Virus record (IMG/VR): IMGVR_UViG_3300020020_000108
Location: 1 to 36,172 of that record
DNA: 36,172 nt
Origin: a virus
Strand: one strand, 5' to 3'
The notes under the pieces were generated by a model, which was given only the letters and a program-made list of their open reading frames with translations, had not been told where the DNA came from and did no database searches. Positions 14,527 to 14,628 of the stretch are shown in pieces. Position 1 is the first letter of the stretch, and each line of letters opens with the position of its first letter. The translations under genes and the position numbers were made by a program.

Positions 14527-14555
14527 AAAAAAATGGTCCCGTGATGAGCGGGACC
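14527..14555 (-). terminator. Rho-independent terminator
   Basis: On the minus strand, GGTCCCG-CTCATCA-CGGGACC is followed by A and seven T (14533-14527), a standard intrinsic terminator. It lies only about 40 nt downstream of the promoter at 14600-14628. Confidence 0.85.
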
Positions 14556-14595
14556 GAGTTGAGACGAGTCGTTACGGGAAGGAAAGCGTAACGAT
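14527..14595 (-). ncRNA. Candidate small RNA of about 69 nt (or attenuated leader)
   Basis: A near-consensus promoter (14600-14628) and an intrinsic terminator (14527-14555) bracket a short leftward transcript. Its 5' end forms the hairpin TCGTTACG-CTTTCCTTCC-CGTAACGA (perfect 8-bp stem, 14594-14569). The loop is all pyrimidine and complementary to purine-rich ribosome binding sites such as the AAGGAAGGAA of the 43-aa gene. A single-stranded linker and the terminator follow. It could act in trans on early mRNAs, or be the leader of a leftward operon whose terminator is overcome by antitermination. Confidence 0.5.
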
Positions 14596-14599
14596 ATGT

Positions 14600-14628
14600 A
14601 GTATATATTGTGTTACTATGTATGTCAA
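14600..14628 (-). promoter_or_regulatory. Strong leftward promoter
   Basis: TTGACA (14628-14623), a 17-nt spacer and TATACT (14605-14600): the best match to sigma-70 consensus in the window. Predicted start at 14595-14592. Confidence 0.75.

Follow-up and report, generated by a model that had tools for sequence, protein, structure and literature searches.

What is encoded by a short leftward unit, composed of promoter, hairpin and terminator, that lies in the non-coding stretch of an uncultivated phage genome? The genome is an IMG/VR virus record of 36,172 bp, analysed here in full and referred to as the window. Its early genes, coding for a helicase, a Sak4-like annealing protein and an exonuclease among others, are directed leftward (0.7-13.4 kb), packaging and structural genes run rightward starting at 14.86 kb, and about 1.4 kb of non-coding DNA separates the leftward early genes from the rightward ones. 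Near and distant DNA searches of phage records with the window returned no match, and a search for the host (TerL against genome contigs) returned a single remote one. Neither integrase nor repressor was recognised among the proteins scanned in the window.

Anatomy of the unit and its surroundings

The unit is composed of the following features:

14672-14700, minus strand: upstream promoter P1, TTGACA-17-TATCTT, with TGn extended -10
14600-14628, minus strand: promoter P2 of the putative small RNA (sRNA), TTGACA (14628-14623), 17 nt, TATACT (14605-14600)
14528-14593, minus strand: predicted sRNA of about 66 nt, start near 14593 deduced from the -10
14569-14594, minus strand: perfect 8-bp 5' hairpin, arms UCGUUACG and CGUAACGA, loop CUUUCCUUCC at 14586-14577
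within 14569-14594, minus strand: putative pairing region of the sRNA, loop CUUUCCUUCC plus 5' arm of the hairpin
14556-14568, minus strand: pyrimidine-rich single-stranded linker, 1-2 changes in 14 nt among relatives
14527-14555, minus strand: intrinsic terminator with U tract; stem-loop GGUCCCG-7-CGGGACC (14555-14535), then AUUUUUUU

P2, the perfect 8-bp hairpin and the terminator were all found where the first-pass annotation of this DNA had placed them; P1 (14700-14672), a second leftward promoter, had been missed there. P2 agrees with the consensus at 11 of 12 positions and is the top promoter-like site within 8-20 kb, and the terminator sits about 65 nt downstream of it. The window has one promoter with at least 11 of 12 matches that is followed by a strong terminator within 130 nt; 60 dinucleotide-shuffled genomes have none. 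The fold energy of the ~66-nt RNA corresponds to z = -4.6 and is equalled by none of 200 shuffles. At the level of sequence, the unit thus has the own promoter and Rho-independent terminator, placed in a non-coding region, that characterize trans-encoded sRNAs. Transcription from P1 would give a form of about 138 nt through the terminator of P2, and the tandem promoters at 14700 and 14628 suggest either two forms of the RNA (~138 and 66 nt) or two regulatory inputs.

Several other elements are present in the same region. A non-coding block preceding the early genes (13455-13725) is highly conserved in the close relatives L004 and L005 and carries, near 13694 on the minus strand, a conserved Shine-Dalgarno sequence followed by AUG-GAU-UGA; it has no match in Rfam, and its fold energy is no better than that of shuffles on either strand. 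TTGACA-16-TATTGT at 13712-13739 (minus strand) is promoter-like, partly conserved and a candidate early promoter, with an operator-like site (13744-13760) adjoining its -35. Two hairpins, 13829-13857 and 14389-14432, have mutually complementary loops of 13-14 nt, CGCCGnAGGCACG and CGTGCCTnCGGCG. The pair, spaced by about 0.4-0.6 kb, has copies in L010 (1696-1737 and 2303-2350) and is found also in L085, L086, L092-L096, L098-L101 and L103, with loops conserved and stems completely different; the hairpins resemble either ssi-type origin hairpins in inverted arrangement or a kissing-loop pair.

The window further contains about 31 copies of a 17-bp near-palindrome, CTGTATGACTCRCACAG, where 0.65 are expected from shuffles. 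Many of the copies, which include those at 11287, 13744, 14476, 14807, 15417, 19722 and 26389, are intergenic, and their orientation tracks transcription, with ratios of 13:5 among early-side copies and 2:11 among late-side ones (Fisher p = 0.003). This bias was not seen in L083, whose consensus is identical to that of the window; among relatives, TGTGTGACTCACACA or TGTTTGACTCAAACA is found. By analogy, the repeats resemble the stoperators of mycobacteriophages.

Conservation in close and distant relatives

The unit is present in L004 (3300020020_000051) and in L005/L006. The hexamers of P1 and P2, 24 nt in total, are the same in both L004 and L005, whereas the 17-nt spacers, taken together, differ at 2 positions in L004 and at 9 of 34 in L005 (P1 spacer, 2 and 4 changes, respectively; P2 spacer, 5 of 17 changed in L005). 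Three changes in the L004 terminator keep every pair of the leftward RNA; in L005, 11 of 21 positions of the terminator stem-loop differ, and a stem followed by a U tract is still there. Fixed hexamers, drifting spacers and a retained terminator stem form the pattern that would be expected of a working promoter and terminator.

In both L004 and L005, the 18 nt of the hairpin's 5' arm and loop contain one change. Two changes in the 3' arm in L005/L006 produce C-A mismatches in the leftward RNA, because of which the L005 RNA loses its 5' stem, and with the stem gone the pyrimidine stretch is single-stranded. It is therefore the exposed pyrimidine stretch that is conserved, and not the perfect hairpin stressed in the first-pass annotation, whose stem no longer folds in L005/L006. 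Exact searches with the hairpin pattern in IMG/VR gave, outside the close relatives, matches in L015 and L017 that are ascribed to chance. Matches of the conserved-block pattern CTGCTCGGTTAACAGG in L019-L021 lie in unrelated sequence and look like chance as well.

A more distant relative, L010, with TerL 61% identical and a like layout, has a unit of the same kind in the equivalent place and direction, with almost no sequence identity to that of the window. The counterpart of P2 is TTGACA-17-TATAGT and that of P1, read by eye, is TTGACA-17-TATAAG; the unit further contains a hairpin with a 16-nt loop, UAAUUAAGCAUUCCCU, a short CUCCUU loop, and a terminator composed of a 9-bp stem, GGCCUCCGA...UCGGGGGCC, and a U tract. 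L078 also has a leftward unit at the corresponding place, with a perfect consensus promoter. The L010 and L078 RNAs share with the window RNA the promoter hexamers and pyrimidine-rich, anti-Shine-Dalgarno-like stretches, and little else. Upstream of the ortholog of gene 12505, no unit was found in most of the wider family, so the unit marks a sub-lineage.

Units of promoter, hairpin and terminator with loop UCUUUAAUCCUUUCC were observed on the opposite strand near the corresponding region in L039 (3657-3532), L043 (10573-10698) and L095 (2058), and L079 also has an sRNA-like unit on the opposite strand. All of these are sRNA-like, and any homology to the window sRNA is conjectural. Three of the best sites of the L043 unit resemble early start regions, an enrichment that is not significant.

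Complementarity to early ribosome-binding sites

The predicted pairing sites of the window RNA at ribosome-binding sites (RBSs) of leftward genes are:

13412-13420, minus strand: predicted site AAGGAAAGC, RBS of gene 13406-13239, 9 contiguous bp
13248-13255, minus strand: predicted site AGGAAAGC, RBS of gene 13242-13018, 8 contiguous bp
12935-12941, minus strand: predicted site GGAAGGA, RBS of gene 12927-12694, 7 bp
12503-12517, minus strand: predicted site for the 5' arm and loop of the sRNA, RBS and AUG of gene 12505-11567
8561-8568, minus strand: predicted site GGAAGGAA, RBS of gene 8553-8422, 8 contiguous bp

The complementarity of the loop to the RBSs of genes 13406 (9 nt), 13242 (8) and 8553 (8), noted already on first inspection of the sequence, holds. 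Lengths of contiguous matches alone are nevertheless weak evidence, because purine-rich RBSs make such matches cheap. Pairing at gene 12927 extends to 7 bp, a mismatch and 4 bp, and its counterpart in L010 reaches 12 bp; the RBS of gene 12505 is complementary to the loop over 7 contiguous nt, and its duplex with 5' arm plus loop has p ~0.016. The product of gene 12505 has no family above cut-off in Pfam, PHROGs, NCBIfam or PADLOC and no fold match. Gene 12694-12927 (minus strand) codes for a small protein with an apparent signal sequence and a CGxEWR...W..FR..C motif, with homologs in L010, L075 and L077. The start region GGAGTGCnnnCTATG recurs in many relatives; the window has GGAAGGATAAGACAATG instead.

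When the loop was compared with loops of the same composition, 4 of 251 fitted the four nearest leftward genes (13406, 13242, 12927 and 12505) as well as the real one. This set was picked after the sequence had been seen; the evidence from the window tests is modest and in part post hoc. On the other 24 leftward genes, 127 of 251 loops equalled or surpassed the real one, and 244 of 251 did so on the 23 rightward genes. The loop pairs with the four RBSs more strongly than does the 16S anti-Shine-Dalgarno stretch used. Six of the best 10 sites on the leftward strand fall in start regions, a number reached by 5 of 120 permuted loops. Target prediction against the early leaders therefore upholds the proposed targeting of early Shine-Dalgarno regions for the promoter-proximal genes, but not strong specificity across the window: in the genome-wide ranking by duplex energy, which is weakly specific, several coding sites outrank the proposed targets. 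Several pairs in the window, L004 and L005 were not significant when the whole 5' domain was shuffled, and the test for start-region enrichment was negative in L083 (a close relative), L043 and L039.

The longest match comes from L010, at the RBS of gene 1125. This gene is orthologous to window gene 12927 (45% identity over 87 aa) and is the first clear one that points leftward downstream of the unit; the loop UAAUUAAGCAUUCCCU pairs with its RBS in a duplex of 12 uninterrupted bp (-18.6 kcal/mol). This RBS is the top site on either strand of the 10.7-kb L010 locus, the loop's own complement aside, the next site having -13.1, and the match is equalled by 0 of 5000 loop shuffles and 0 of 5000 target shuffles; with the whole 5' domain, stem included, in place of the loop, p is ~0.01. 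Start-region enrichment in L010 derives from a single site. Exchange of the two sRNAs weakens both duplexes: the L010 RBS gives -18.6 with its cognate sRNA and -7.8 with the swapped one, and the RBS of window gene 12927 gives -12.0 and -9.4, respectively. Partial complementarity to translation initiation regions, retained in relatives, is thus found in L010 and in the proximal genes of the window.

Proposed function and comparison with known RNAs

On balance, we favour the reading that 14628-14527 (minus strand) is a phage sRNA gene whose RNA would pair in trans with early RBSs and likely block ribosome binding. An RNA of ~66 nt would be transcribed from its own near-consensus promoter and stopped at its own terminator, with the pyrimidine-rich, anti-Shine-Dalgarno-like 5' region exposed in the hairpin loop or, in L005, as a single strand. 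This region would base-pair in trans with leftward early RBSs, first with the nearest ones (13406, 13242, 12927 and 12505), and ribosome access to the paired early mRNAs would be blocked, resulting in translational repression. What the sequences show is a promoter, a terminator, a unit conserved in relatives and complementarity to RBSs, the 12-bp match in L010 included. We infer that the RNA is made, that it pairs and that pairing represses, as well as the stage of infection or lysogeny at which it would act. The design kept in relatives, together with a changed L010 RNA that fits the start site of the orthologous gene, suggests that the RNA is a genuine off-switch whose general type is known. 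The small-regulatory-RNA reading of the first-pass annotation is in this way partly supported, having gained the conservation of the unit and the L010 loop/RBS match. If it is real, a base-pairing sRNA with an identifiable phage target is added to a large family of uncultivated phages, and the family offers a natural test of co-evolution between an anti-Shine-Dalgarno RNA and its target, because the cognate pairs of the window and L010 can be swapped. It is conceivable, if doubtful, that a fast-evolving anti-Shine-Dalgarno RNA switch is at work, its loop and the early RBSs altering in step from lineage to lineage, so that each phage would silence its own early operon by a private RNA code, layered atop a stoperator-like repressor system.

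Other explanations start from the same unit. Its position upstream of the early operon, on the shared strand, with two promoters feeding one terminator, would also suit an attenuated leader, in which 14628 and 14700 are the early-operon promoters, most transcripts end at the terminator (14535) as long as no antiterminator or other factor lets polymerase pass, and the short RNA is a by-product. Read-through is compatible with all computed results, but 1.1 kb without a clear gene lies between the terminator and gene 13406, another promoter-like site that points leftward (13739), next to an operator-like site, lies directly ahead of the genes, and attenuation alone predicts neither the 12-bp match in L010 nor the conservation of 5' arm and loop; we regard it as unlikely. 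Rather improbable is an immunity RNA of the P1 C4 or P4 CI kind, made constitutively in lysogens and keeping early genes off, possibly in cis on read-through as well as in trans. It would account for a strong promoter with no operator-like site over it, for the position upstream of the genes to be silenced and for the complementarity to early RBSs, and the abundance of operator-like sites would fit a temperate phage that has a repressor. Among the scanned proteins, however, neither an integrase nor a repressor was recognised, so that lysogeny is only putative, and the unit has its own promoter and terminator in place of processing and no Rfam match.

The non-coding 13.7-14.85 kb could also hold a replication origin, with the RNA as its countertranscript or primer-type control. 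The region contains repeats and the conserved hairpin pair with complementary loops, which recurs in the wider family without the sRNA, and RNA-based prophage origins are known in mycobacteriophages (PMC7157519). This role is nonetheless very improbable: no antisense partner of the sRNA was found within 13.7-14.85 kb, the best external partner of the L010 sRNA is an RBS, and many relatives with the hairpin pair lack the sRNA. There is, finally, a slight chance that a protein binds the inverted repeat, as DNA, over the transcription start and that the RNA itself is functionless. In L005 the stem is better kept as DNA or plus-strand RNA, owing to G-T wobbles, than in the leftward RNA; on the other hand, the L010 inverted repeat is unrelated, the pyrimidine stretch recurs where the symmetry does not, and the terminator is maintained on the leftward strand.

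Comparison with known RNAs bears on the favoured reading, a trans-acting sRNA, as well. Rfam gave no match for the whole window at gathering score, nothing for 12900-14900 at E up to 5, and chance-level matches only for a 141-bp stretch (17.6 bits or less) and for L010; covariance models of C4 antisense RNA, alpha-r14 and other Rfam sRNA families did not match. The likeness to HK022 put RNAs is a hairpin close to the 5' terminus of an early phage transcript. Put sites are pairs of neighbouring hairpins that let polymerase run past terminators. The window unit has instead one hairpin, followed at once by an apparently active terminator, and the put-like antitermination proposed as an alternative in the first-pass annotation found no positive support.

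The gene for P1 C4 lies upstream of the C4 targets, on their strand. C4 is a 77-nt phage antisense RNA, processed from a longer transcript, that blocks phage protein synthesis in trans (PMC8546580). The window RNA is likewise a phage RNA of comparable size with proposed trans action, but it has a separate promoter and terminator and no C4 match in Rfam, and no relationship between the operon proteins is known. P22 sar and lambda OOP have their own promoter/terminator arrangement. Both are short phage RNAs that pair with phage mRNAs (review PMC12197685); each lies antisense to the gene under its control and matches it over a long stretch, whereas the window RNA is encoded elsewhere and has seeds of 7-12 bp. 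P4 CI, a short phage RNA, silences early genes as an antisense RNA: it pairs with sites on both sides of itself, upstream and downstream, and thereby causes transcription to terminate prematurely (PMC4825925). Silencing of early genes by a short antisense phage RNA is what is proposed here too, with the difference that the complementary sites of the window sRNA are RBSs. In place of the processed leader of P4 CI and P1 C4, it has its own promoter and terminator, yet it lies upstream on the strand of the operon.

Alpha-r14 sRNAs, such as chromosomal NfeR1 of Sinorhizobium meliloti, present an anti-Shine-Dalgarno motif in hairpin loops that are conserved while the stems vary; NfeR1, with three hairpins carrying CCUCCUCCC, pairs with translation initiation regions and blocks translation (PMC10746234). 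The window RNA is similar in its anti-Shine-Dalgarno motif in a hairpin loop, its variable stem and its predicted targets in initiation regions. By sequence and fold, it differs in having one hairpin with CUUUCCUUCC in place of three hairpins each with CCUCCUCCC, and further in its predicted phage targets and the lack of an Rfam match. With no covariance match and an anatomy unlike that of put, it would therefore be a phage-encoded base-pairing sRNA outside any named family.
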